Positions 12,630-37,968 of a stretch of DNA of 39,181 bases are shown one piece after another; position 1 is the stretch's first letter; the number at the start of each line of letters is the position of its first letter. A program made the position numbers and the translations under genes. The stretch comes from a virus. Location of the stretch: positions 1-39,181 of IMG/VR virus record IMGVR_UViG_3300028920_000150; one strand, given 5' to 3'. The notes under the pieces are model-generated. The model saw nothing but the letters and a program-made list of their open reading frames with translations, made no database searches and was not told the DNA's origin.

Positions 12630-14060
12630 CTAAATTTTCTTTATTGTATATTTCTTTCTAACATTTGATGATCTTCCTGAATTTCTCTTGGACGATGCTA
12701 TCATATTTTTAACCTGTCCCCAATCTACCATTTTATCATCCTCTGTCTCTATCTGGGAGCTTTGTATAGCGAATGATAGACTATCGATTGTATCATCATA
12801 CATCCCTCTCGGAAACATTATTAATTCATCCACCCAACTAGTTAAATTTGGATTCATTAATATCCTTCCAGTCTCAAAAAATACCGATAATCTTTGTACT
12901 CTACTCATCTTGTCACTTACTATGGATGATTTGATGGGTACTATCGGTAGTGTAGTAGATTCCACTAATTGATCTACTATCATCTTCTGTTGTGCAGCCT
13001 GTTCTATTCCTATCTTTATTGGCTGCCATTTATTGAAATATGATTTTATTAATTCAAATTGGTGAAATAGTGATGCTTGGTTTGTCCTTAGTCCATCCAA
13101 GGCATATATAACTCCATCCTTTATAGCCACTATAGTTATAGAGAAATTATCAGATTCTTCTCCCTTTGATGCAAAATCTACTCCCATATAGACATCATAT
13201 TGAGGAGTGGGCATCCTGAAATTATTAGTAGAGTTATGTACCCATTCCATCTTAATGGGCGAATCTCCTGAAGAGATTATATTATTTTGATATTGTAATT
13301 CAAAACCTACACTTCCTATACTTCTCTTGATTTCTTGGAGTTTCTCATAATTGAATCTCTCGGGCCATAATACAGATTTTTTCTCATCATCTAGTATTGC
13401 CTTATATCTCTTATGTTTAAATCGAGATGATTCTTGTAGGTATCTGTGAATATCATCTTCATGCCATCTTGTTCCTATAGATAATATTTTACCGTCAGGT
13501 TCAAGCATGGGCATTAGAGTTAGATTGTACCAACGAACTAATTCCTGTCTTCTGTGTTCAGTTCTTGAATTTTGTTGGTCCGTTATATCATCTAACACTA
13601 TTAATTCGTAGTGTCCCCCTACCATTGAGGAGGTTATACCAAGAACAGATAATGTATCCTCTTTATGAGCTATTCCTGTTTTACCAGCTCTCATAACTCT
13701 AAGACTGGATCGAGACCAGTTCTTTGAGAAACCTCTCTGCTCTCCAAATATTTCTTTTAATTTATCATTATTTTCAAGATGATGCTGAATGAATGACATC
13801 ATTTCATTAGCTTTATCTTGATTAATTGTAACTATTAATATTCTAATATTGGGATCTGTTACGATCCTCCAAATCATATAAGCTCCGATTATTGTAGTTT
13901 TTCCGTGTCCTCTAGGAGCTTGTAGAGACACATAACTACTCTTCTCAAATGTTTCTATCCATTCCCTATGGAACCATTTTACATCTAATCCTAAGATTTC
14001 TTCAATGAATGGTATAGGGTTAATAGAATATTTGAGAACTTCTAGATCATCATTTCCCAT
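12630..14060 (-). CDS. terminase large subunit
   Basis: 476 residues. ATPase part: Walker A QAPRGHGKTT at 47-56, Walker B ELIVLDD at 152-158, motif III SIGTRWHEDD near 194-203. Nuclease part: YMGVDFASKGEESDNFSITI with Asp295, IGIEQAAQQKM near 350-360, and YDDTIDSLSFAI near 421-432, the three acidic clusters of the RNase H-like nuclease. Full length for the family. It pumps DNA through the portal and cuts concatemers. Some 14 bases upstream of Alba. Its ATG at 14,060 is preceded by an AAGGAAAG sequence. Confidence 0.92.
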   Translation of the reverse strand: MGNDDLEVLKYSINPIPFIEEILGLDVKWFHREWIETFEKSSYVSLQAPRGHGKTTIIGAYMIWRIVTDPNIRILIVTINQDKANEMMSFIQHHLENNDKLKEIFGEQRGFSKNWSRSSLRVMRAGKTGIAHKEDTLSVLGITSSMVGGHYELIVLDDITDQQNSRTEHRRQELVRWYNLTLMPMLEPDGKILSIGTRWHEDDIHRYLQESSRFKHKRYKAILDDEKKSVLWPERFNYEKLQEIKRSIGSVGFELQYQNNIISSGDSPIKMEWVHNSTNNFRMPTPQYDVYMGVDFASKGEESDNFSITIVAIKDGVIYALDGLRTNQASLFHQFELIKSYFNKWQPIKIGIEQAAQQKMIVDQLVESTTLPIVPIKSSIVSDKMSRVQRLSVFFETGRILMNPNLTSWVDELIMFPRGMYDDTIDSLSFAIQSSQIETEDDKMVDWGQVKNMIASSKRNSGRSSNVRKKYTIKKI

Positions 14061-25627: not shown

Positions 25628-25699
25628 ATGATAGTAGTAATTATAGGTAGTGCATTTCCAATACCAAATGCTTGGAGAATAGATAGTAAAGTAGAGTGA
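25628..25699 (+). CDS. possible microprotein
   Basis: 23 codons, MIVVIIGSAFPIPNAWRIDS then KVE. Begins six bases after the previous stop; its end GAGTGATTGAAATG carries the next ribosome site. Low confidence because of length. Confidence 0.35.
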   Translation: MIVVIIGSAFPIPNAWRIDSKVE

Positions 25700-27455: not shown

Positions 27456-27905
27456 ATGAAAAAAACAAAAAGAACTAAAATGAAAATAGGAGAATTGACA
27501 ATACAAACACCCACTCGGTTTATTACTAAATACATATGGGCATACTTTGAGAAAAACTATTGGACAGATAATAAATTAATGTGTGTCCTAAACATAAACT
27601 TTAAGAAAGATGAATTTGAAAGACTTGATATGTTTATGGATAGATTATATAGTTTAGATATAAAAGGGGTTGAAGTTACTGCTCATGATGTTAATTTAGG
27701 TTTATATAATAAAGGAACAAGGGAACCCTTCCACAAGAAATACTTTAAGGTATTCTTAAATGTAGACTTATCAAAAACAAATTTAAGTTATGTGCTTAAG
27801 GTATTAAATGAGAGTATATTGGTATCAGTAACCAGATATCTATTAGAAGTAGATGAAAATAGAATAGAACCTCTAAAAGAAAAGACAATGGTTGAACTAA
27901 TATGA
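27456..27905 (+). CDS. early protein with MVELI tail
   Basis: 149 residues, alternating strand and helix: MKIGELTIQTPTRFITKYIW, LNINFKKDEFERLDMFMDRL, FKVFLNVDLSKTNLSYVLKV. C-terminus EKTMVELI, the first of 14 proteins sharing this ending. A basic N-terminal KKTKRTKMK. Good ribosome site AAGGAGAAAG upstream; overlaps the next gene by ATGA. Fold not recognised. Confidence 0.6.
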   Translation: MKKTKRTKMKIGELTIQTPTRFITKYIWAYFEKNYWTDNKLMCVLNINFKKDEFERLDMFMDRLYSLDIKGVEVTAHDVNLGLYNKGTREPFHKKYFKVFLNVDLSKTNLSYVLKVLNESILVSVTRYLLEVDENRIEPLKEKTMVELI

Positions 27906-28678
27906 AAAATAAATATATGGAAATGTATTATGGAGATACTACGATCAAGGAACATAAAAAACTACATACAGAAATAGCAACTCTTGTAGAGGAGTTAAGG
28001 CAACAGATATATGATATAGGTGTATCATTTCAGGCAGTATCAAGAGGATTAATAAAGAGTAAAAGAATATTTTATATTGAGGGTAAAGAGTATCACGATG
28101 GATACTATAAAACAACATATGATTATGGTTTAGGTAACTTTGGTTTTGGTAGTAAACAAACCAGATGGGGAACAAATCTTGACTATGATTGGCTTTGTCT
28201 ATATAATACAAAAAGGGATATAATAAAGAAAAAGAAAATGCTTAAAGATGGAATTAAAAGATTATATCATAATAGATTTGATATGTTAATAGATACCTTA
28301 AAGATATTTCCAGATTTTGATAATAATGTTAAAACCTATACTGAAGATTTTAATTTAGATGATAAAGAATTTTGGGAAGATGAACCCTATAAAAGAGGAT
28401 ATGCTGAAAGTGAATTAGTAAAAAGATATGGCTCAAATGTATCTATTACTTTAATCCATAAAAGGAGAGATAACAACAATACATTAGATATAGAGCCAGA
28501 TGATGTAGAGGATATGTTTTTATTTAATCATCTTTACGATAAATTAAATATTGCTATGAAGGAACACATAGAGAAACTTACATACATAAAAAAACTATTA
28601 GATGATTTTATTAAGACAGAAGATTACAAGAAAGTGTTACAAGAAGCAATAAATATAAGATTGTTAGAAAAGATATAG
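27902..28678 (+). CDS. early protein, unknown (258 residues)
   Basis: 258 residues. N-terminal helix (KKLHTEIATLVEELRQQIYD), a middle beta region (RIFYIEGKEYHDGYYKTTYD, GLGNFGFGSKQTRWGTNLDY), and C-terminal coiled coil (EHIEKLTYIKKLLDDFIKTE). Overall plan is like the 301-residue protein at 34,562: coils around a Tyr/Trp-rich beta core. No domain recognised. Confidence 0.55.
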   Translation: MKNKYMEMYYGDTTIKEHKKLHTEIATLVEELRQQIYDIGVSFQAVSRGLIKSKRIFYIEGKEYHDGYYKTTYDYGLGNFGFGSKQTRWGTNLDYDWLCLYNTKRDIIKKKKMLKDGIKRLYHNRFDMLIDTLKIFPDFDNNVKTYTEDFNLDDKEFWEDEPYKRGYAESELVKRYGSNVSITLIHKRRDNNNTLDIEPDDVEDMFLFNHLYDKLNIAMKEHIEKLTYIKKLLDDFIKTEDYKKVLQEAINIRLLEKI

Positions 28679-28689
28679 GAGAAATCCAG

Positions 28690-28854
28690 ATGGGTAGAAA
28701 AAGAAATATAAGACACTATAAAAGTAAGGAACAAACTTACGATAGTTTTTTGGGAGTATGTAACCATATGGGATTAGGTAAACTATTCAAGATATGGGAT
28801 TTATTTTACTTCAAAGATTATCATACACTACATAGATATCATTTAATAAAGTAG
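28690..28854 (+). CDS. basic His-rich small protein
   Basis: 54 residues, MGRKRNIRHYKSKEQTYDSF to TLHRYHLIK. Basic N-terminus; HMGLGKLFKIWDLFYFKDYH near the middle. AGGAGAAATCC upstream. Unknown. Confidence 0.5.
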   Translation: MGRKRNIRHYKSKEQTYDSFLGVCNHMGLGKLFKIWDLFYFKDYHTLHRYHLIK

Positions 28855-28861
28855 GTTTTAT

Positions 28862-29011
28862 ATGCTGGAACTATTAACCAATATTCAGGGTATTATACAA
28901 AGTTTAAGTGAAAAAGATAAAGAGATATTTTTAAATATCCTGAACAAGATAGAGAACGAGTATATGATTACTAATAGATATCCTCCTCTTACTAATACAT
29001 ATGCAACATAG
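28862..29011 (+). CDS. microprotein
   Basis: 49 residues, MLELLTNIQGIIQSLSEKDK to TNTYAT. An amphipathic helix with a MITNRYPPLT tail. Unknown. Confidence 0.45.
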   Translation: MLELLTNIQGIIQSLSEKDKEIFLNILNKIENEYMITNRYPPLTNTYAT

Positions 29012-29020
29012 AGGTATTAT

Positions 29021-29236
29021 ATGTCTTTAGAAAAAGGAATTAGAGAATTAAAGATAAAGACCTTAAAAAAATTGCTTAAACATTTCAGAGGTAGAAAAAC
29101 TCTATTAGAAAAATATAGAGATATGGATATAGATAGAGAAATATTGGATTGTCTTAATGAGATTACTAAACTTAAAAAACAATTAGATGAATTAAAAACT
29201 CAAGAAGAAAATGAAATAGGAGGAGATAAAGAATGA
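29021..29236 (+). CDS. coiled-coil small protein
   Basis: 71 residues, helical throughout: MSLEKGIRELKIKTLKKLLK, LEKYRDMDIDREILDCLNEI, TKLKKQLDELKTQEENE. Probably a coiled coil adaptor. ATGA overlap with the next gene. Confidence 0.5.
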   Translation: MSLEKGIRELKIKTLKKLLKHFRGRKTLLEKYRDMDIDREILDCLNEITKLKKQLDELKTQEENEIGGDKE

Positions 29237-29346
29237 AAGCAAAAATAGATAAAAAATTATGTAAGTATTGTGATTTTTCTGATAAGGGAAATGCTAATAT
29301 TTGCATAAATAAAATGATGGATAGAAATTGTAGATTTGATAAGTGA
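29233..29346 (+). CDS. Cys-rich microprotein
   Basis: 37 residues, MKAKIDKKLCKYCDFSDKGN then ANICINKMMDRNCRFDK. Four Cys (C-x2-C...C...C). Stop TGA followed closely by a new ATG (GTGATTAGTATG). Confidence 0.5.
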   Translation: MKAKIDKKLCKYCDFSDKGNANICINKMMDRNCRFDK

Positions 29347-29351
29347 TTAGT

Positions 29352-29534
29352 ATGACAATACTATACTTTAATATAATAAGAGCAGATGAAACTTTTGGTG
29401 GTAAAGATAATTGGTTCGGTAGACCATCTGAATATATAAGGTATGAGGAAGATAAACTTTATCATATAATTGAATATACCATTAAGAAAAGCAAATTATT
29501 TTATTCAAAAGTCTTATTTAGTGAAGAAATATGA
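29352..29534 (+). CDS. hypothetical small protein
   Basis: 60 residues from the ATG at 29,352 (MTILYFNIIRADETFGGKDN); a GTG three codons earlier is possible. Beta-rich; ends YSKVLFSEEI. AGTGATTAG before the ATG is a GTGAT-type site. ATGA overlap with the next gene. Confidence 0.5.
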   Translation: MTILYFNIIRADETFGGKDNWFGRPSEYIRYEEDKLYHIIEYTIKKSKLFYSKVLFSEEI

Positions 29535-29821
29535 ACTTAATAAAAAAGATAAAAGAAGGAAAGATTGTTGGTTTACATTATGAAGTAGACGATTTAATGA
29601 CATATGGAATGGATTATGTTGTTATAGTTAGAAAAGTATATAAAGATGACCCCTTAAGATTTAAAGGAGAGATATTAGAATATAATGAAGAAATGTCAGG
29701 AAGTCTAAAGGGATATAAAAAACCAGAAGAAAAAATAGGAAAGGAATTAATGTTCTTTAATTTTGATAAGGTAAAATTTGTTATAGATAAAGATAAATAT
29801 ATAGTGGAGAAGATTTTATAA
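29531..29821 (+). CDS. small barrel-like protein
   Basis: 96 residues: MNLIKKIKEGKIVGLHYEVD, YGMDYVVIVRKVYKDDPLRF, KGEILEYNEEMSGSLKGYKK, FDKVKFVIDKDKYIVEKIL. Strand pattern and ending (DKYIVEKIL) resemble a looser member of the MVExL group. Directly coupled to the next gene. Confidence 0.5.
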   Translation: MNLIKKIKEGKIVGLHYEVDDLMTYGMDYVVIVRKVYKDDPLRFKGEILEYNEEMSGSLKGYKKPEEKIGKELMFFNFDKVKFVIDKDKYIVEKIL

Positions 29822-29979
29822 TGGTTAGAATTGGAGATAAAATAAAAGTTGGTAGAAGAAAAGGAACTATCATTAATATAGTAGAAAATATAGATGATAG
29901 ATACCTGATACTATATAAATCAAGAGGAAAAACATATGCCTTATTAGAAGGAGATATGGATTTTAAAGTGATAAAATGA
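29821..29979 (+). CDS. SH3-like small barrel protein
   Basis: 52 residues: MVRIGDKIKVGRRKGTIINI then DDRYLILYKSRGKTYALLEG. G-D-x-I-x-V...G-x-I-x-x-I...Y-x-L is a KOW/SH3-type barrel. It looks like a short relative of the 68-84-residue proteins at 34-36 kb, without the C-terminal tail. Confidence 0.5.
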   Translation: MVRIGDKIKVGRRKGTIINIVENIDDRYLILYKSRGKTYALLEGDMDFKVIK

Positions 29980-30641
29980 ATGAGGAATATAGATTAGAAA
30001 AAAATACAAGATATGGTAATGAAATAACAGATTTTATATTTACACCAAAAGATAAAAAATATAATGAATTACATTTAACTTATTGGGATTCTTATCATAG
30101 ACCTATAAAATATGAACCCATAAATAAGACAGATTGTTTATTGTATTTTAAAGGACATATGATACCAAAATTATTTCCATTGAAATACATAGAACCTTTA
30201 GAGGATTATATGATAAATCATATGAGAGGAAATGGATATACAGATATGAAACTAACAAAATTACCAGAAAGGAAAGAACAAAAAGATACTGTTACAGTTG
30301 GAAAATTACTACAAGAGATCGATGTAGACCACTTAAGAATAAGTTGTGGAAATTCAAGAACAATTCTTAATGCCTATAATAGAGAAGCATTAGCATATGC
30401 TCAAGCATTTTCAGGAATAATAGTGTTCTTTAAGAAAAGAGGAGGACATCTATGTTATCATATAAGTAGAGTGGGGATAGGAAATAGGTGGGGTTGGAAT
30501 AATGCAACTCAAATTAGAGATTTAATGCAGGGTGTAAATTTGCTTAAGGATATTAAAAAGAAAACCCTTGCAGTTAATATAAAAATACCAAAAGGATTTG
30601 AACAAAAAATGTTAGATGAAACTCTAATTAATAAACTATAA
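29976..30641 (+). CDS. early protein upstream of MoxR (221 residues)
   Basis: 221 residues. N-terminal half strands (ITDFIFTPKDKKYNELHLTY, WDSYHRPIKYEPINKTDCLL); second half alpha/beta (LLQEIDVDHLRISCGNSRTI, LAYAQAFSGIIVFFKKRGGH, GNRWGWNNATQIRDLMQGVN). No known domain recognised. It lies directly before the AAA ATPase, separated by 18 bases containing AGGAGAGTGATG, so it may be a partner or substrate of the MoxR module. Confidence 0.5.
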   Translation: MNEEYRLEKNTRYGNEITDFIFTPKDKKYNELHLTYWDSYHRPIKYEPINKTDCLLYFKGHMIPKLFPLKYIEPLEDYMINHMRGNGYTDMKLTKLPERKEQKDTVTVGKLLQEIDVDHLRISCGNSRTILNAYNREALAYAQAFSGIIVFFKKRGGHLCYHISRVGIGNRWGWNNATQIRDLMQGVNLLKDIKKKTLAVNIKIPKGFEQKMLDETLINKL

Positions 30642-30659
30642 GGAGAGTGATGTAAAAAG

Positions 30660-31817
30660 ATGGTAGTAAGAGAAGTAGGACACGAAAAGTTAGAGAGAAT
30701 CCTCAAGAAAGACTATGAGGAAGATATAGCACACTTTGTAAGTGGGGCTACAGGAATAGGCAAGTCAATGACAGTAGATAAAGTTTGTAAAAACTTATCA
30801 GATAAAATGGGTAGAGTGTATATAAAGTGGAATAGAATATCTAAAGAAGATAAAGTAAAGGTATCTGAAAATCCTGAAAAATATTTCTTTATGATGGATA
30901 TTCGTTTATCACAGTTAGACCCATCTGATTTAAGAGGTCTACCAGCATTGAATGGAAAGAGTGTAGTTGAGTGGAAAATTCCATTCTGGTTACACGTTGC
31001 CTCTCTAAAGGGAGCAAAGGGTATTATATTCTTTGATGAGATTAACCTTGCCCCTCCCAGTATACAGGCAGCAGCCTATCAGTTAATACACGATAGAGAG
31101 TTAGGAGAAACACCTATATCAAGTGGTGTATTGCCTATTGGAGCAGGTAATAGGTTAGAGGATAGAGCAAATGTATATGACTTACCAAGACCTCTACAAA
31201 ATAGATTTACCCATACAACCTTAAGACCTCCTGTTATTACACAAGATTGTAAAAGTAGGAATGGTATTACGGATTGGGGTGAGTGGGCTTTAAATAATGA
31301 TATTGATATGAATATTGTTACTTTTCTAATACAAAGACCTAACTTGCTTAACCCAAAAATAAATCAAGATAGTAATGAAAGAGCATTTCCAACACCAAGA
31401 AGTTGGGCAGTTTGTTCTAAACTTATTAAGGGAGAAAAGGATTTAGAGTGGATAGAAGAACTTGCTTCAACAGCAGTAGGTTCTGGAGCAGCAAGTGAGT
31501 TGGTATCTACAATTAAATTCCAAAGACAGATTAATTTAAATGATATTCTAAAACACCCCGAGAAAGCAGGAGATATAAAGGAACTTGATTTAAAATATTC
31601 TCTATTATCTTTAGTATCAGAGTGGTATGCAATAAATAATAAAAAAGAAAGTTTAGAAACTGTATTACAAATAGCAAATATAATACAACCTGAATTTGCT
31701 ATTCTATTATTGAGATTTGCAAAGATAAAACACCCCTCATCATTCAAGAAACACGTTACAACATTAAAGACTTGGAAACCCATTTCAAAGAAATATCAGA
31801 AGTATCTATTAACTTAA
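30660..31817 (+). CDS. MoxR-type AAA+ ATPase
   Basis: 385 residues. Walker A GATGIGKS at 29-36, Walker B IIFFDEIN at 122-129, LDPSDLRGLP (86-95) and a sensor-1 Asn in IGAGNRLED, then LPRPLQNRFTH (arginine finger area). These are MoxR/CbbQ-like signatures, close to the CobS-type group. Such ATPases act with VWA-domain partners to remodel proteins or insert metal ions. Two genes on comes a metallopeptidase/VWA partner, an established pairing that also occurs in phages. Confidence 0.85.
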   Translation: MVVREVGHEKLERILKKDYEEDIAHFVSGATGIGKSMTVDKVCKNLSDKMGRVYIKWNRISKEDKVKVSENPEKYFFMMDIRLSQLDPSDLRGLPALNGKSVVEWKIPFWLHVASLKGAKGIIFFDEINLAPPSIQAAAYQLIHDRELGETPISSGVLPIGAGNRLEDRANVYDLPRPLQNRFTHTTLRPPVITQDCKSRNGITDWGEWALNNDIDMNIVTFLIQRPNLLNPKINQDSNERAFPTPRSWAVCSKLIKGEKDLEWIEELASTAVGSGAASELVSTIKFQRQINLNDILKHPEKAGDIKELDLKYSLLSLVSEWYAINNKKESLETVLQIANIIQPEFAILLLRFAKIKHPSSFKKHVTTLKTWKPISKKYQKYLLT

Positions 31818-31826
31818 AATTAGATT

Positions 31827-32057
31827 ATGTATTGTAAAGTCAAGAGAAAATTTAACCTTTTTGCTTTTGGTGTCTATATAGATTTAAAAAATAGTGAATT
31901 AGGATTAACTATTTTGGATATGAATAGATACTATGAAGTTAAAAAATTGTTAGATTTAAGTTTAATAATCTTTTTAGATAGTGGTAGAGAAGCAATGGTA
32001 TCTAAACAGATAGTAGATATTTTCACTAAAGATGAAAGAATGGTTGAAGATTTATAG
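31827..32057 (+). CDS. small barrel-like protein with MVEDL tail
   Basis: 76 residues: MYCKVKRKFNLFAFGVYIDL, LGLTILDMNRYYEVKKLLDL, FTKDERMVEDL. Ends in the shared tail K-D-E-R-M-V-E-D-L. Lies inside the MoxR-VWA cluster, which may tie the tail family to that machinery. Confidence 0.5.
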   Translation: MYCKVKRKFNLFAFGVYIDLKNSELGLTILDMNRYYEVKKLLDLSLIIFLDSGREAMVSKQIVDIFTKDERMVEDL

Positions 32058-32068
32058 GAGAAAATATT

Positions 32069-32200
32069 ATGGAAGTAGAAGGAGAATGTGAAGAAGAAGT
32101 TGAGTGTCCTTACTGTAAAAAGAAATTTGTGTGGACATTTACTTATGTAGATGAAATAGATTTATCGGACTATGCTCCAGATAGAGATTGGTATGATTAA
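32069..32200 (+). CDS. acidic zinc microprotein
   Basis: 43 residues, MEVEGECEEEVECPYCKKKF then VWTFTYVDEIDLSDYAPDRD. CPYC pair plus another Cys; very acidic. Reads like half of a zinc ribbon. AGGAGAAAATATT upstream. Confidence 0.5.
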   Translation: MEVEGECEEEVECPYCKKKFVWTFTYVDEIDLSDYAPDRDWYD

Positions 32201-32211
32201 GGAGAAACTAT

Positions 32212-32553
32212 ATGAAAAAGAATGTTAGGGTATGTGATTTCTGTAATGATAGGGAAAATATAGCAACAAAAACTTGCACTTATTGTAATAAAGATTTATG
32301 CTTTAAACACATAAGGAGAGTAGCAATTTCTTTATATGGTTCAGGATATGGAGAAGATACTGAAAGTATAGCAACAACTTTAAAGTTAAGTGTTGGTTAT
32401 ACACACCCTAACTCAACAGTAGTTTATATATGTCCTGAATGTGAAAAGGTAATTAAAAATATATTATCAATATTATCTCAAGGAGATAAAGAGTATATAT
32501 TAAAAGAGTTGATAGAATTTATGAAAACAAAAGCAGAGGTAGAAGCAATATGA
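32212..32553 (+). CDS. B-box/ribbon-like zinc protein
   Basis: 113 residues. VCDFCNDRENIATKTCTYCN and DLCFKHIRR give C-x2-C...C-x2-C...C-x2-H, like a B-box; later VVYICPECEKVIKNILSI adds another C-x2-C pair. C-terminus helical, ending KAEVEAI. Located between the AAA and VWA genes and overlapping the latter by ATGA, so probably an adaptor of that module. Confidence 0.6.
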   Translation: MKKNVRVCDFCNDRENIATKTCTYCNKDLCFKHIRRVAISLYGSGYGEDTESIATTLKLSVGYTHPNSTVVYICPECEKVIKNILSILSQGDKEYILKELIEFMKTKAEVEAI

Positions 32554-33911
32554 GTAATGGTTTAAGTTTGGGTTTGACGGCAGAAGAAAAACTGATAAGA
32601 GCAAGAATACAACTACAAAAAGAGAAACCATTCTTTAGTTATTTAACTATGCACTTAAACTTTATAGAAACACCAGATATGCTTAAGAATTGTCCTGGTG
32701 GTATAGGTGTAGATAAGTATGGTAATCTCTACTTTGATCCCGAGTATATAAATACATTAGCAGATGAGGAAATAAAAGGTGTATTGGCTCACGAAGTAAT
32801 GCATTGTGCATTAGAACATTTAGAGAGATTATGTAATAGAGACCACTTTGTCTTTAATGTTGCTAATGATATAGTGGTAAATCATATGTTAATAAAAGAT
32901 GGTATGCAATTACCGAGAGATGGAATAAATCCATATGGAGATAGTATAGATTTCTTTGGTATAAAGATTAAGAAAATAGGAGATAAGACATCTGAAGAAG
33001 TATATGATAAACTTTGGAGAGGATTATCTAAACAATGGAATAAGAATAAAAAGAGAATTAAGGATTACTTATCAGAACAAGAGCAAAAAGGTAATGGTGG
33101 CTTTGACCAGCATATGTATGGAGAAAAGGAAAAAGATAAAAAGAATTGTCCTGTCTGTGGTGGTAGTGGTAAGGATAAAGATGGTAAAGATTGTCCAAGA
33201 TGTAGCAAGGAGAATAAAAAAGGTAGTAATGGAAAAATACCACAAAATGCAAAGGAAAAAGATTGGAAAAAGATATTAGTAGATGCCTGTTCACACGCAA
33301 GACAAAGAGGAAATTTACCAGCAGGAATGGAAAGAGTTGTAGGTAAATTATTAGAAACCTATATAGACTGGAAAGGCTTATTATATAGATATATTACATC
33401 CCAGATACCTGTTGATTATACTTGGGCAAGACCCAGTAAAAGAAGTCATTCATTAGGAATATATTTACCAGCAGTTGAGAAAGAGTTAATAGAAGTTATG
33501 GTAGCAGTAGATACATCTGGAAGTATAAGTCAAAAAGAATTAGCAGAATTTATATCAGAAATATCTTCAATAGTAAATTCCTTTAAGAATGTGGACTTAA
33601 CTGTTATTGATTGTGATTGTAGAGTTAATGGTGTTCACGAATTAAGAAATGCATCTGTAAGTGAAGTTATTACTAAAATAGGTAATAAGTTAAGAGGTGG
33701 TGGTGGAACATCTCATATCCCAGTATTTGATTGGATTAATAAGAATAAGCCTACAAGTAAATTTGTAATATGTTTTACGGATGGTTATACAGAATTTCCT
33801 GACAAAGAACAAGTTAAACAACCAGTATTGTGGGTAGTTGCAGGTAATTGGAGAGCAGATAAAGATAATTTCCCATATGGAAAAGTAATTGAATTGCCTA
33901 AAGATGATTAA
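32550..33911 (+). CDS. VWA-domain protein with metallopeptidase-like domain
   Basis: 453 residues. N-terminal DUF2201-like part with HEVMH at 81-85 (a zinc H-E-x-x-H motif, here in VLAHEVMHCALEH), then NDIVVNHMLIKDG. A central DnaJ-like zinc site C-P-V-C-G-G-S-G...C-P-R-C (200-218). C-terminal VWA domain with MIDAS DTSGS at 321-325 and GGGGTSHIPVFDW further on, then FVICFTDGYTEF. It is the standard partner of MoxR AAA proteins; ATPase and VWA subunits form a chelatase- or chaperone-like complex. The peptidase motif appears complete, so protein cleavage is possible. Confidence 0.85.
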   Translation: MSNGLSLGLTAEEKLIRARIQLQKEKPFFSYLTMHLNFIETPDMLKNCPGGIGVDKYGNLYFDPEYINTLADEEIKGVLAHEVMHCALEHLERLCNRDHFVFNVANDIVVNHMLIKDGMQLPRDGINPYGDSIDFFGIKIKKIGDKTSEEVYDKLWRGLSKQWNKNKKRIKDYLSEQEQKGNGGFDQHMYGEKEKDKKNCPVCGGSGKDKDGKDCPRCSKENKKGSNGKIPQNAKEKDWKKILVDACSHARQRGNLPAGMERVVGKLLETYIDWKGLLYRYITSQIPVDYTWARPSKRSHSLGIYLPAVEKELIEVMVAVDTSGSISQKELAEFISEISSIVNSFKNVDLTVIDCDCRVNGVHELRNASVSEVITKIGNKLRGGGGTSHIPVFDWINKNKPTSKFVICFTDGYTEFPDKEQVKQPVLWVVAGNWRADKDNFPYGKVIELPKDD

Positions 33912-33913
33912 TT

Positions 33914-34144
33914 ATGGAACCTGAATTAGAAAAAACCTATTATCATTATAGATATGGTCTATTTAAGGTTGTTGCTATTATAAAGTCTATTAGAAAAGAA
34001 CATTACAATTTGGTTATAAGAATATTATATAATTATAAGAACCGTAATATATTAAGAGTTCAACATTGGACACCATATTATAAAAATTGGGATATGTTTG
34101 TAAAAGAGATGACAATAGATGAATATATGGTAGAGGTCTTATGA
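33914..34144 (+). CDS. small barrel-like protein with MVEVL tail
   Basis: 76 residues: MEPELEKTYYHYRYGLFKVV, AIIKSIRKEHYNLVIRILYN, FVKEMTIDEYMVEVL. Short beta-strands and the shared tail I-D-E-Y-M-V-E-V-L. Starts two bases after the VWA stop. Stop and next start overlap (ATGA). Confidence 0.55.
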   Translation: MEPELEKTYYHYRYGLFKVVAIIKSIRKEHYNLVIRILYNYKNRNILRVQHWTPYYKNWDMFVKEMTIDEYMVEVL

Positions 34145-34362
34145 ATAAGAGAAAGGCAAATATAGGAGATTATGTTAGAGTGAAGATATATACCAAAGGA
34201 ATTGGTATAGTTTCAAGGATAGAAGTGAATTGTTTTAATTATAACTTAATATATCACATTAAAAAATTAAAGGAAGATAGTATGATAAGCCATGAATATA
34301 AATGTTATGCAAGTCAATTTGATGTTATAACTGAAGATGAAGCAATGGTTGAGTTAATATGA
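34141..34362 (+). CDS. SH3-like small barrel protein with MVELI tail
   Basis: 73 residues: MNKRKANIGDYVRVKIYTKG, IGIVSRIEVNCFNYNLIYHI, KKLKEDSMISHEYKCYASQF, DVITEDEAMVELI. G-D-Y-V-x-V...G-I-V-x-x-I...Y-x-L is a SH3/KOW-type barrel. Clear member of the tail family. Part of a chain of ATGA-coupled genes. Confidence 0.6.
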   Translation: MNKRKANIGDYVRVKIYTKGIGIVSRIEVNCFNYNLIYHIKKLKEDSMISHEYKCYASQFDVITEDEAMVELI

Positions 34363-34565
34363 CAGAAGTAGGAGATTATGTAATTCCAAAAGGTGGAGTT
34401 TTAAGAGGAGAACTATGTAAAGTAATAAGTAAATACTATGGGAATGGCTCTTATTTATTTAATTGTTATATAGTTATGTCTTTAATTAGTAAGGCAAGTT
34501 TTGAGTATTATAGAAAGGAATTTACACAGATAAATAAAGATAAGGTAATGGTTGAGGTATTATGA
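34359..34565 (+). CDS. SH3-like small barrel protein with MVEVL tail
   Basis: 68 residues: MTEVGDYVIPKGGVLRGELC, KVISKYYGNGSYLFNCYIVM, YRKEFTQINKDKVMVEVL. Similar layout to the previous gene (V-G-D-Y-V start, strands, tail K-D-K-V-M-V-E-V-L). ATGA couplings at both ends. Confidence 0.6.
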   Translation: MTEVGDYVIPKGGVLRGELCKVISKYYGNGSYLFNCYIVMSLISKASFEYYRKEFTQINKDKVMVEVL

Positions 34566-35467
34566 AGATAGAAGAAGATATGGAGAAACTTAATGAAAAT
34601 ATTTCTTCATTATGTAATAAGATAGAAGAACACAAGGAAAAGATAAAGATATTAGTAAATGATAAAAGAGAGAAGGCAGATGAATTCTTAAAGAATGGTA
34701 TTGATATTCCTGATAGTCTTATGGAAGTTTCAAAGAAAATAGAAAAGTATTTATCTGGAGATAATTCATATGAAAATTTAAGGAAGTCCTTAAGAAAGTT
34801 ATATGATACATCCTTTAATGGTATTGTAGGAGGAAGGATTAAAACAAATGTTACATTACCAGATAACCTAAAGCATTATAATCACGAAGATAATTTATGG
34901 ATTAATACAAAGGGGTTATCCTTTAAGTGGAAAGAAAGTAAAAGTTATTGGGAACCTGAATATTATAAGAGAACAAAATGTTTTACGGATTGGAAGGATA
35001 TAAAACAATTGATAGTTGATAATCCAAAGTTGACAAAGTTTATAAAGAGAAGTGATAAAAAGAAGATATATACAGCATTCTATAATTGTCTAAAGGATTG
35101 GAAAGAATTATATGGTATAAAAAAAGAATGGAATTATAAAATATATATTCCTAAATTTGAAGAAGGATACAGTAATGGAATAACAAGTGCTTCTTTTAAA
35201 GAGGCAACAAGAATAAAAGCAACCTTAAATTATAGAGGAATAAGATTAGATTTTGATGGTGGTGGATATTATAGTTCAAAGCAGATAGATTTAGGAAGTG
35301 AACTTGATTTAGAAGAACTATATATATTATCACAATTAAATGAAGAAGTTATAAAGGGAATAAATGGTATAGTTAATGAAGTTAAAGGAATTTATGATAA
35401 AGATTTAAAGTTATATGAAACCTTAAAGAATGATTTAGCACCCTATATATTCCAGAGAATGATTTAA
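34562..35467 (+). CDS. early protein, unknown (301 residues)
   Basis: 301 residues. N-terminal coiled coil (MEKLNENISSLCNKIEEHKE, KIKILVNDKREKADEFLKNG), central domain with FNGIVGGRIKTNVTLPDNLK, KGLSFKWKESKSYWEPEYYK and TLNYRGIRLDFDGGGYYSSK, C-terminal helices (LYILSQLNEEVIKGINGIVN). Resembles the plan of the 258-residue protein at 27,902. No domain recognised. It lies within the tail family array. Confidence 0.55.
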   Translation: MKIEEDMEKLNENISSLCNKIEEHKEKIKILVNDKREKADEFLKNGIDIPDSLMEVSKKIEKYLSGDNSYENLRKSLRKLYDTSFNGIVGGRIKTNVTLPDNLKHYNHEDNLWINTKGLSFKWKESKSYWEPEYYKRTKCFTDWKDIKQLIVDNPKLTKFIKRSDKKKIYTAFYNCLKDWKELYGIKKEWNYKIYIPKFEEGYSNGITSASFKEATRIKATLNYRGIRLDFDGGGYYSSKQIDLGSELDLEELYILSQLNEEVIKGINGIVNEVKGIYDKDLKLYETLKNDLAPYIFQRMI

Positions 35468-35468
35468 G

Positions 35469-35708
35469 ATGATACCTAAAGTTGGAGAATATTATAAGCA
35501 GTATGTAGATAAGCATCACTATAGAGTATTCAAAATACTTGAAGTAAAAAAAGAAGATAGTTGTGACATTTATAAATTTAAAGTCAGAGAAGTATTTAAG
35601 AATTTCTATGACCCTACAATAGGAAGATTGCAAGGATTGACTATGCATCTTCAAATGTGGAAATATGAAAAAGTTAATCCAGATGAGATTATGGTTGAGA
35701 ATTTATGA
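35469..35708 (+). CDS. SH3-like small barrel protein with MVENL tail
   Basis: 79 residues: MIPKVGEYYKQYVDKHHYRV, FKILEVKKEDSCDIYKFKVR, LTMHLQMWKYEKVNPDEIMV then ENL. G-E-Y-Y start and strands as in the sister genes; P-D-E-I tail. One base after the previous stop; overlaps the next by ATGA. Confidence 0.6.
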   Translation: MIPKVGEYYKQYVDKHHYRVFKILEVKKEDSCDIYKFKVREVFKNFYDPTIGRLQGLTMHLQMWKYEKVNPDEIMVENL

Positions 35709-35932
35709 ATATAGAAGATAATTTAGAATTAGCAGATAATAATAGACAAAAATGTTCTATATGTGGAAGAACAATACCAAAGAATGTTCATAGAGTATCA
35801 TTTTATTATAATACACAATGGGGTGGAAGCAATAAAAGAATATGTGGAATGTGTATATTAGAATTAGCAGAACATATAGATAAAGAATCCATAAAGGAAT
35901 GGAAAAATAAGATAATGGTTAAGAGAATATGA
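35705..35932 (+). CDS. zinc-ribbon protein with MVKRI tail
   Basis: 75 residues: NNRQKCSICGRTIPKNVHRV, SFYYNTQWGGSNKRICGMCI. CSIC and CGMC form a zinc site; the ending K-I-M-V-K-R-I is a variant of the family tail on a different body, showing that the tail is shared by unrelated domains. Confidence 0.55.
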   Translation: MNIEDNLELADNNRQKCSICGRTIPKNVHRVSFYYNTQWGGSNKRICGMCILELAEHIDKESIKEWKNKIMVKRI

Positions 35933-36183
35933 AACTAGAAATAGGAGAATATTATTTAGTTACTGAAACTTATCGTTTGACTAGTTCCGAAAAACAGATT
36001 ATAGTAATAGCAAAATTAGTTGCTATAAAAGATGATGAATATCATTTTAACTTTATAGCAAAGTATAGTAGTTATGAACATAATATAAATAAACAGTTTT
36101 ATATGCATGAACATGAAATAAATGGAGATAGGTTTAAGGTTAAACCTATAAATAAGGATAGAGTTATGGTGGCTACATTATGA
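35929..36183 (+). CDS. SH3-like small barrel protein with MVATL tail
   Basis: 84 residues: MKLEIGEYYLVTETYRLTSS, IIVIAKLVAIKDDEYHFNFI, FKVKPINKDRVMVATL. I-G-E-Y-Y start, several strands, tail K-D-R-V-M-V-A-T-L. Overlaps the next gene by ATGA. Confidence 0.6.
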   Translation: MKLEIGEYYLVTETYRLTSSEKQIIVIAKLVAIKDDEYHFNFIAKYSSYEHNINKQFYMHEHEINGDRFKVKPINKDRVMVATL

Positions 36184-36581
36184 AAAAGAAATTAGGAGAA
36201 ATAATATTGAGAGATCATGAAACAAAAAAAGTTTTAGATACACTTACAGTTTGGGGAACTCTATTTAAAGGAGAAAATTCAAAATATGTTACAGGTGGAG
36301 TATATGTATCATTTAAACCTGAAAATATAGATGCAGAATTTCCATTAATAAAAAAACTTATGGCTAAGAATACTGATTTGAGATTAAAGTATAATGCAGA
36401 ATTCTGGGGAGAATATTATAATCTAGGTACTTATGGTAATCCTAAGTATAAAGATTTTGAACAATCTATAAGATTTATAAAGTTAGTTAATGGATATTTC
36501 TTTGAGAATTATGATATAGAAGTTAAAATAAAACATAACTTTCAATATGTAGTGGATGCTAATATAGTGGAGAGTATATGA
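36180..36581 (+). CDS. early protein with IVESI tail
   Basis: 133 residues: MKKKLGEIILRDHETKKVLD, TGGVYVSFKPENIDAEFPLI, IRFIKLVNGYFFENYDIEVK. Alternating alpha/beta, with an ending V-V-D-A-N-I-V-E-S-I that replaces Met by Ile. It resembles the plan of the 149-residue protein at 27,456 (G-E-I/L-I/T start, strand, helix, strand). Not recognised. Confidence 0.55.
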   Translation: MKKKLGEIILRDHETKKVLDTLTVWGTLFKGENSKYVTGGVYVSFKPENIDAEFPLIKKLMAKNTDLRLKYNAEFWGEYYNLGTYGNPKYKDFEQSIRFIKLVNGYFFENYDIEVKIKHNFQYVVDANIVESI

Positions 36582-36808
36582 ACGTAACTAAAATGGCAGA
36601 AATTATTAAACTAGAGTATATGAGATTAATTAAAAAATCAGAACCATTTAATAAAATATTCTTTTGTAAGAGTTGTAAGAGAATAAGATTACATGGATAT
36701 AAAACTATTAATTATAAGATGTTTTATAGTAGAGAAGGTGGCAAGATAAAAGAAATAATTGAATGTGATAAATGTTATAAGAATAGAAAATTAATAGAGG
36801 CTTTATAA
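36578..36808 (+). CDS. zinc protein with LIEAL tail
   Basis: 76 residues: MNVTKMAEIIKLEYMRLIKK, IFFCKSCKRIRLHGYKTINY, EIIECDKCYKNRKLIEAL. CKSC and CDKC form a zinc ribbon; ending K-L-I-E-A-L is a loose version of the tail. Its stop shares a base with the next ATG (TAATG). Confidence 0.55.
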   Translation: MNVTKMAEIIKLEYMRLIKKSEPFNKIFFCKSCKRIRLHGYKTINYKMFYSREGGKIKEIIECDKCYKNRKLIEAL

Positions 36809-37092
36809 TGGATAGACAATTATGTGAGGAAATGGAAGATTTAATAATGGAATATCATTCGGATAAATATTATGTTTTAAATTATGGATATTATCTTCAT
36901 GTCTTTACTAATAGTGGTGATAATATGATTATGGTATTACATGGATATGGAACAGAATATGAGCCTTATGAATTAAAGTTAATAAAAGTAGATGAAGATT
37001 CAACAATAATTAAAAGTTTCTATAGTAAAAGAAAATTAAAGAATTACATTAAGAATAAATTAGCAGATGAATTAATGGTGTTAAAGTTATGA
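36808..37092 (+). CDS. early protein with MVLKL tail
   Basis: 94 residues: MDRQLCEEMEDLIMEYHSDK, YYVLNYGYYLHVFTNSGDNM, YELKLIKVDEDSTIIKSFYS, NYIKNKLADELMVLKL. A helix-strand-strand body and tail A-D-E-L-M-V-L-K-L. Fold not recognised. Confidence 0.55.
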   Translation: MDRQLCEEMEDLIMEYHSDKYYVLNYGYYLHVFTNSGDNMIMVLHGYGTEYEPYELKLIKVDEDSTIIKSFYSKRKLKNYIKNKLADELMVLKL

Positions 37093-37333
37093 CCTCAATG
37101 AAAGAAGATAAATATTATAGGTATTATGATAATCAAAAAATGAATACAATATTCTTAAAATAAATAAAATAGATTATAAACCAGATGGTTGTATGTATGG
37201 AACTTCTTTAAAATATAAACTATGGGTAGATGCTATAGTGGGTAATGTAGGTTTGATTTATACTAGTAGATATTACTGGGATAAGGAAGCAACTGAAATA
37301 ACAAAAGAAGAAGCATTAGTGGAGAGTATTTAG
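37089..37333 (+). pseudogene. tail-family gene broken or frameshifted at an A6 run
   Basis: Frame 0 starts at 37,089 (MTSMKEDKYYRYYDNQKMNT) and stops at 37,163. A different frame picks up at 37,139 and runs on to 37,333 (NEYNILKINKIDYKPDGCMY, VGNVGLIYTSRYYWDKEATE, ITKEEALVESI), ending with the family tail. Joining them needs a -1 shift at the AAAAAA at 37,135-37,140, exactly where the frames meet. The result would be an 81-residue protein of family style. It may be programmed slippage on the A-run, a true mutation, or an error in the homopolymer. The frame overlap without another start supports one former gene. Confidence 0.6.
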
Positions 37334-37753
37334 ATGGGAATGTATAGTTACCTTCAATATGAAGATTTACATTCAGAATATCCAGAAGAATTAGTTAAAT
37401 GGAGAGAGAGAAAATTAGAAGAAGGAGATGACTACTGGGATGCAATTGAAGTAGATGAAAATGGATATATAAGTTTTGAAGGCCTATCAGGATTTAAAAT
37501 AATAAGTTATTGGTATCCAGAGTTTATACAATTTCTAACTGAGATTGCTTTATTTATTAGAGGTCAAGTATGTTTTCTATATGAAACATCTGAAGAAATG
37601 GCTACAATACATTTTGAAGATGGAACATTTTATATTGATATGGGAGAAATGTGTTTCACTAAATTTACTGCAACTGAAGTAGAAAACATACATGGAATAG
37701 ATGTAAAAATACCAGAAGAATTAAAGGACTTAGTTATGGTTGGAAGTTTATGA
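37334..37753 (+). CDS. early protein with MVGSL tail
   Basis: 139 residues: MGMYSYLQYEDLHSEYPEEL, YISFEGLSGFKIISYWYPEF, EEMATIHFEDGTFYIDMGEM. N-terminal helical, middle mixed with aromatic residues, ends in K-D-L-V-M-V-G-S-L. Follows the frameshifted gene with adjacent TAGATG. Fold not recognised. Confidence 0.55.
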   Translation: MGMYSYLQYEDLHSEYPEELVKWRERKLEEGDDYWDAIEVDENGYISFEGLSGFKIISYWYPEFIQFLTEIALFIRGQVCFLYETSEEMATIHFEDGTFYIDMGEMCFTKFTATEVENIHGIDVKIPEELKDLVMVGSL

Positions 37754-37968
37754 TAGATTTAACTAAGTATAGAAAATTAAAATGCTCTGTAGCTAATTTA
37801 GAGGATAATCTTTTTGCAGAAAAAGGAACGGTTTGTGAAATATTAGGATTAGATGAAGATTTTATGATGATGGTATCTCCCATTAATGATAGAAATGCAA
37901 TAATACATTGCACAGAAGATATATTAGACCCTGTAACAGAAGATGATATAATGGTGGAAAATATATGA
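37750..37968 (+). CDS. small barrel-like protein with MVENI tail
   Basis: 72 residues: MIDLTKYRKLKCSVANLEDN, LFAEKGTVCEILGLDEDFMM, MVSPINDRNAIIHCTEDILD, PVTEDDIMVENI. Short strands with EKGTVCEIL like an SH3-type turn; tail E-D-D-I-M-V-E-N-I. ATGA overlaps at both ends. Confidence 0.6.
   Translation: MIDLTKYRKLKCSVANLEDNLFAEKGTVCEILGLDEDFMMMVSPINDRNAIIHCTEDILDPVTEDDIMVENI

Follow-up and report, generated by a model that had tools for sequence, protein, structure and literature searches.

Lineage-specific C-terminal tails on many small nonstructural proteins in a clade of uncultured, probably archaeal, tailed viruses

Short C-terminal tags with a hydrophobic or small last residue occur on diverse proteins and include encapsulin cargo peptides, ssrA-like C-degrons, and PDZ ligands. 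Another precedent is CbbQO, a bacterial rubisco activase of the MoxR-VWA type, which requires the exact C-terminus of rubisco, responds to an 11-residue C-terminal peptide with increased ATPase activity, and binds a substrate carboxylate via the metal ion-dependent adhesion site (MIDAS) of its VWA domain (PMC4660213). In viruses, a survey of jumbo phages described a pair made of MoxR and a metallopeptidase-VWA protein and proposed for it a role in virion assembly, citing the chaperone of Acidianus two-tailed virus (PMC7824862). The T4 internal proteins, moreover, are a highly diverse antidefense set sharing a capsid targeting sequence (PMC3012670). Here, we describe a C-terminal tail with the consensus [DE]xxMVEx[LI]-COOH that closes many small genes in a 39,181-bp virus record (IMGVR_UViG_3300028920_000150; 30.5% GC), called the window from here on. 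Shared C-terminal tails of this kind were not found reported in a literature search that mostly did not reach subscription papers.

The window belongs to a clade of uncultured tailed viruses, probably archaeal, in which one genome-specific tail closes many small nonstructural proteins whose bodies are of several different kinds. Its minus strand encodes an HK97-type capsid protein, an S78-type protease, a portal, and a terminase, and its plus strand carries many small genes. Gene calls came from an in-house script based on codon usage; their start positions may be off, and their stops are unaffected. A preliminary description had listed 14 similar endings, and all of them were found, at stops from 27905 to 37968. 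The strict pattern M[VI]xx[LI]-stop closes 11 of the 90 called genes (0.06 expected), and the loose pattern [MLIF][VI]xx[LI]-stop closes 15 (0.5 expected). An unbiased test of C-terminal composition in the window revealed M at −4 (12 versus 2.1 expected; z = 6.9), V at −3 (16 versus 3.5), and E at −2 (20 versus 5.1), with L at 0, D at −7, and K at −8 also enriched; against internal 7-mers drawn at random from the same proteins, the final 7 residues across all genes stood out with z = 19. The conserved positions vary through hydrophobic replacement (M/L/I/F). The −2 residue is mostly E and otherwise A, G, K, L, S, N, I, Y, or F, and both V at −3 and the terminal L/I are more constant than E. 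An encapsulin-like VGSL ending at 37753 was set aside as one variant of many.

Related virus records (denoted G001, G009, G010, G017, G020, G028, G030, G035, and G036) were reached by several routes. The window VWA gene led to a 144.5-kb contig, G001 (IMGVR_UViG_3300030616_000506; 67% identity), and a search with an alignment of VWA proteins brought in G035 (118.7 kb) and G036 (107.9 kb). A capsid search yielded 38 loci, including G017 (115.8 kb; 96% identity) and G009 (155 kb; 70% identity); capsid-centered loci are nearly without tails because tails avoid the structural region. A strict DNA pattern search of IMG/VR and GTDB genomes returned the G001 contig plus isolated chance matches only. 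Among annotated phages, the capsid search led to haloarchaeal tailed viruses, and G001 further encodes PolB, a Rad51-like protein, and an ERCC4-HHH nuclease; together, this kinship and gene content suggest that the host of the clade is probably an archaeon.

Tails of the window type recur in G001 (20 strict tails versus 0.15 expected) and G017 (9 versus 0.11), so that, as far as relatives were examined for lost endings, the tails are present and the protein-level reading of the preliminary description, with a docking tail, sorting tag, or degron as candidate roles, stands. Other members of the clade carry other tails. In G009, many genes end in F-[LM]-E-x-[LI], with F at −4 in 39 versus 6.6 expected (z = 12.9), L or M at −3, E at −2, and L/I at 0, and F...[LI]-stop closes 34 genes versus 1.7 expected. 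G010 has the same tail type. Dozens of G035 genes end in [VI]-A-x-x-L, and among its small genes A stands at −3 in 65/188 (z = 20), V/I at −4, and L at 0 in 97/188. Several G036 genes end in LL[SA]x[EK][LI] (e.g., VLLSKEL and VLLAGEI), and a few V-A-type endings were detected in G028 (P = 3e-5) and G030 (P = 3e-4) with a pattern chosen after inspection. G020 was tried as a negative control and rejected, since it has neither tails nor MoxR-VWA but its contig misses the homologous region. As a separate observation, an 840-residue PolB in G009 (46856) ends in LFSELI, which fits the G009 tail, whereas the orthologous polymerases of G001, G017, and G028 end otherwise; the LFSELI ending was set aside as possibly due to chance, with 1.7 chance matches expected.

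Homologous bodies can bear different tails, as evidenced by two pairs between G001 and G009: G001_124781 (MVELL) and G009_18469 (FLEVL; E = 5e-4), and G001_129251 (MVEKL) and G009_21797 (FMEIL; E = 6e-3). Across 13 orthologue pairs, some of which share a gene, V at −3 is identical in 12, the −2 residue is kept in 6, and the −1 residue is kept in 2. Orthologues of the protein at 36180-36581 end in IVEKI (G017) and IVDKI (G001), and that of 35705-35932 ends in LVDKL (G001_129735). Homologues of 36808-37092 end in LMVLKL in the window itself, MVLKL in G017, MMMYEI in G001, and YIVAMAL in G030. The 46-residue open reading frame (ORF) at 37193-37333 is homologous to the final 46 residues of the 81-residue proteins G001_122018 and G017_847. 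The preliminary description had proposed comparing silent and nonsilent change in relatives; among orthologues, tails and bodies do not differ in overall identity (0.55 versus 0.53) and are equal in silent change, and only the position-specific pattern is informative. The coordinated change of tag across many genes suggests a trans-acting reader of the genome-specific tail.

Tails are not confined to genes that overlap their downstream neighbor. Among genes with TAA or TAG stops and no overlap, 7/316 have tails in the window, G001, and G017 combined (0.22 expected; P = 4e-9), as do 17/165 in G009 (1.05 expected; P = 1e-15). Genes without the ATGA overlap are likewise enriched in G035 (8/115 versus 0.05 expected; P = 1e-15) and G036 (8/110 versus 0.05; P = 8e-16), and G036 tails never overlap the next gene. 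The protein sequence is therefore under selection, which agrees with the hydrophobic swaps and the different tails of related viruses and sustains what had been proposed from silent codon variation. Codon choice carries a further signal: the tail V is coded by GTG in 24/53 cases (45%, versus 7% genome-wide), the tail E by GAG in 18/34 (53%, versus 24% genome-wide), and G-ending L codons are favored ahead of GAG in G009. A Shine-Dalgarno site of the next gene is therefore embedded in the tail codons. It is thus well supported that the tail is kept through selection on the protein, with a ribosome site as a second layer where genes overlap.

The carriers had been described as unrelated small proteins, and this holds in part. 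A profile built from SH3-like bodies minus their tails matches 6/11 strict carriers in the window, 13/20 in G001, 2/9 in G017, and 20/33 in G009. The others number 5 (with no match at E < 1), 7, 7, and 13, respectively, and are far above chance (P = 1e-9, 1e-11, 3e-11, and 8e-11). The protein at 34141-34362 was modeled as a five-stranded SH3/Tudor-like barrel (predicted local distance difference test score [pLDDT], 88) whose tail forms the terminal helix. Its Foldseek matches in the PDB, of which Tudor 6if4 is the best (E = 6e-3; TM score, 0.67/0.80) and which also include CAP-Gly and KOW/NusG, are weak, with no E below 1e-3. In G035, the 56- to 117-kb region (L180 to L183) holds dozens of tandem genes for proteins of 60 to 100 residues that start with MKYYI and end with ELVAYLL, for the most part one hypervariable family. 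A protein of this array was modeled with another fold (pLDDT, 93) that also ends in a strand and then a helix, and neither PDB nor BFVD contained a match to it below E = 1e-3. In both modeled families, the tail is a short ordered helix after the last beta strand. For ten carriers, neither Pfam nor PHROGs yielded a confident family. The tail is common to more than one family, and family expansion supplies many of its copies.

Tail genes lie close to genes for a MoxR-type ATPase and, adjacent to it, a protein that comprises the Pfam domains DUF2201_N and DUF2201, with a metallopeptidase motif (HEVMH, matching HExxH) and MIDAS residues (DTSGS, T, and D). These HEVMH and MIDAS residues are kept in 5/5 aligned VWA proteins. 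Tail genes at most 12 kb from MoxR/VWA account for 15/15 in the window, 25/32 in G001, 25/34 in G009, 30/67 in G035, and 8/10 in G036 (Fisher P = 3e-4 to 5e-9), and none of the window tails is on a structural gene or near the capsid genes. Both genes are present in the tail-bearing window, G001, G009, G010, G028, G030, G035, and G036, although for G035 and G036, which the VWA search itself brought in, possession of that gene is no independent support. Of the proteins that G001 and G035 share, none approaches MoxR and VWA in similarity. A search with a two-sequence MoxR alignment found one distant record, which is without tails.

We propose, with a probability of about 0.42, that the tail marks its carriers for recognition by a common virus-encoded partner, most probably the MoxR AAA+ ATPase together with the metallopeptidase-VWA protein, a pair encoded amid the tail genes that we infer to be the strongest candidate reader from its location, its conservation, and precedent. 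The complex would bind the exact C-terminus of tagged proteins, perhaps holding the acidic residue at the VWA MIDAS, and would then remodel, load, assemble, or cleave either these proteins or the partners bound by their variable bodies. Coevolution of tag and reader would leave each lineage with its own tail. Several observations weigh against this proposal. The −2 residue is not constant, which makes a MIDAS contact by the tail itself doubtful. G017 has tails but no MoxR-VWA on a contig that begins inside the tail region, and no shared tails were found at about 70 further viral loci that have VWA homologues; the machine therefore does not require the tail, and the association is one-sided. 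Also, paralogous expansion inflates tail counts, and because the tail helix is predicted as the ordered end of a domain, its conservation may partly reflect internal packing. In an extended version of the proposal, which is speculative and rather improbable, the small proteins would serve as exchangeable adaptors, catching different host proteins with their variable bodies, and the lineage-specific C-terminal code would deliver each complex to the viral MoxR-VWA-metallopeptidase, which would remodel or cleave the target as tag and reader coevolve.

Could the tail be a by-product of translation or of architecture? If the bases ATGGTNGARNNN[TA]TATGA served translation of the next overlapping gene and nothing else, the ATGA overlap that follows most window tails would be explained, along with the GTG, GAG, and G009 L codon preferences. 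A fixed anti-Shine-Dalgarno sequence, however, cannot explain lineage-specific tails such as F-[LM]-E-x-[LI] and V-A-x-x-L; G009 has TTTYTG and similar bases instead of ATGGTN. Overlap-free tails also code their last L/I as TTG, CTT, CTC, ATC, or ATT, and neighboring overlaps are served by GGAG in other frames. The gene after 32057 has its own AGGAGAA site, and thus the tail DERMVEDL is not its ribosome site; a separate GGAGG site follows the IVESL ending of G001_124318, the orthologue of 35469-35708. Reinitiation, raised at the outset as an alternative, is thus refuted as the sole cause by the tails without overlap, survives as the second layer seen in codon choice, and is very improbable as a full account. 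An explanation from structure and paralogy, in which carriers derive from one or a few small domains ending in a strand and a short helix and packing keeps the tail, draws on the SH3-like share of strict carriers, on the ordered helix modeled in two families, and on the G035 array being mostly one family. We regard it as a fairly unlikely account: the same residues occur on cysteine-rich bodies and on bodies of 94, 133, 139, and 149 residues, which with different folds would not need identical residues for packing, and the whole tail set differs between genomes at the same positions.

Two further accounts keep the tail as a tag and change its reader. The tail could be recognized by a host protease, as a C-terminal degron or stability tag that makes early proteins short-lived, and would then differ between lineages because their hosts differ. 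Its place at the very C-terminus, the hydrophobic last residue in all lineages, and its confinement to nonstructural genes are compatible with such a role, but the tail is predicted as an ordered helix, and the clustering with the viral MoxR-VWA would be left unexplained; we judge this account improbable. Marginally less probable still is a virion-targeting tag, under which the head would take up the tagged proteins and carry them into the next host. The T4 capsid targeting signal is N-terminal, unlike the C-terminal tail here, and carriers avoid the structural region. Moreover, 84%-identical capsids go with the same tail, and nothing links tail change to capsid change. On the other side, the window virus encodes a prohead protease and an HK97-type capsid, and T4 has diverse antidefense proteins with only a targeting sequence in common (PMC3012670).

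A common tail that is changed genome-wide between related viruses provides a handle on gene function in viral dark matter, with one tag predicting that tens of proteins per genome feed into one common pathway. Should the MoxR/metallopeptidase-VWA pair prove to be the reader, the tails would also amount to the substrate code of a machine commonly found in large phages, for which no viral substrates were found described in the literature searched.

Other features of the window were noted alongside the tails (the tails and the candidate reader genes are given in Table 1). The 301-residue neighbor at 34562-35467 gave no IMG/VR relatives in searches using single-sequence patterns. At 645-2124, adjacent small proteins of about 157 to 163 residues match a block of related genes at 13.9 to 16.4 kb of G001, a structural-region family whose copy number varies. 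The terminase large subunit has 801 residues in G001 (L004; 1416-3821) and 476 in the window (12630-14060), and relative to the window protein about 330 extra residues, possibly an intein, are inserted behind residue 54 of the G001 terminase. Junctions near 25697, 25845, 26851, 27015, and 27176 have GAGTGATTGAAATG or GAATGATTGAAATG in common, laid out as the TGA stop of the upstream gene, TTGAA, and then ATG; they make ORF finders call a spurious GTG/ATG start (MIEM), and G001 contains the same junction string.

Table 1. Positions of the tails and of the two candidate reader genes in the window
Feature	Carrier or role	Coordinates	Strand
MoxR-type AAA+ ATPase	Candidate half of tag reader	30660..31817	+
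DUF2201 protein, metallopeptidase + VWA	Candidate half of tag reader	32550..33911	+
Tail KEKTMVELI	149-aa protein 27456-27905, not SH3-like	27879..27902	+
Tail DERMVEDL	31827-32057, not SH3-like	32031..32054	+
Tail DEYMVEVL	SH3-like protein 33914-34144	34118..34141	+
Tail DEAMVELI	SH3-like protein 34141-34362; predicted terminal helix, residues 65-72	34336..34359	+
Tail DKVMVEVL	SH3-like protein 34359-34565	34539..34562	+
Tail DEIMVENL	SH3-like protein 35469-35708	35682..35705	+
Tail NKIMVKRI	Cysteine-rich, zinc-finger-like protein 35705-35932	35906..35929	+
Tail DRVMVATL	SH3-like protein 35929-36183	36157..36180	+
Tail DANIVESI	133-aa protein 36180-36581	36555..36578	+
Variant tail NRKLIEAL	Cysteine-rich, zinc-ribbon-like protein 36578-36808	36782..36805	+
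Tail DELMVLKL	94-aa protein 36808-37092	37066..37089	+
Variant tail EEALVESI	46-aa ORF 37193-37333	37307..37330	+
Tail KDLVMVGSL	139-aa protein 37334-37753, not SH3-like	37727..37750	+
Tail DDIMVENI	37750-37968, SH3-profile match	37942..37965	+

Unlike encapsulin cargo peptides, ssrA-like degrons, and PDZ ligands, the tails have a different consensus and a −2 residue that is not fixed; no encapsulin or PDZ reader was identified, and no search aimed at a PDZ reader was made. Like the T4 internal proteins, the carriers are a diverse, fast-evolving set with one short segment in common, but the T4 segment targets the capsid, and the tag here is C-terminal on carriers encoded far from structural genes. 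The side-by-side arrangement of MoxR and VWA is also seen in jumbo phages, where VWA has an N-terminal metallopeptidase domain, and in the p618-p892 pair of Acidianus two-tailed virus, although no shared tails are described for these pairs. The likeness to CbbQ-CbbO is one of machinery, a MoxR AAA+ ATPase with a VWA partner that needs the C-terminal residues of its substrate plus an acidic residue (PMC4660213). CbbQO has one substrate, a C-terminal HK/R motif, and no peptidase domain, whereas the viruses described here have many tagged proteins, a hydrophobic tail, and a metallopeptidase fused to the VWA domain of their candidate reader.

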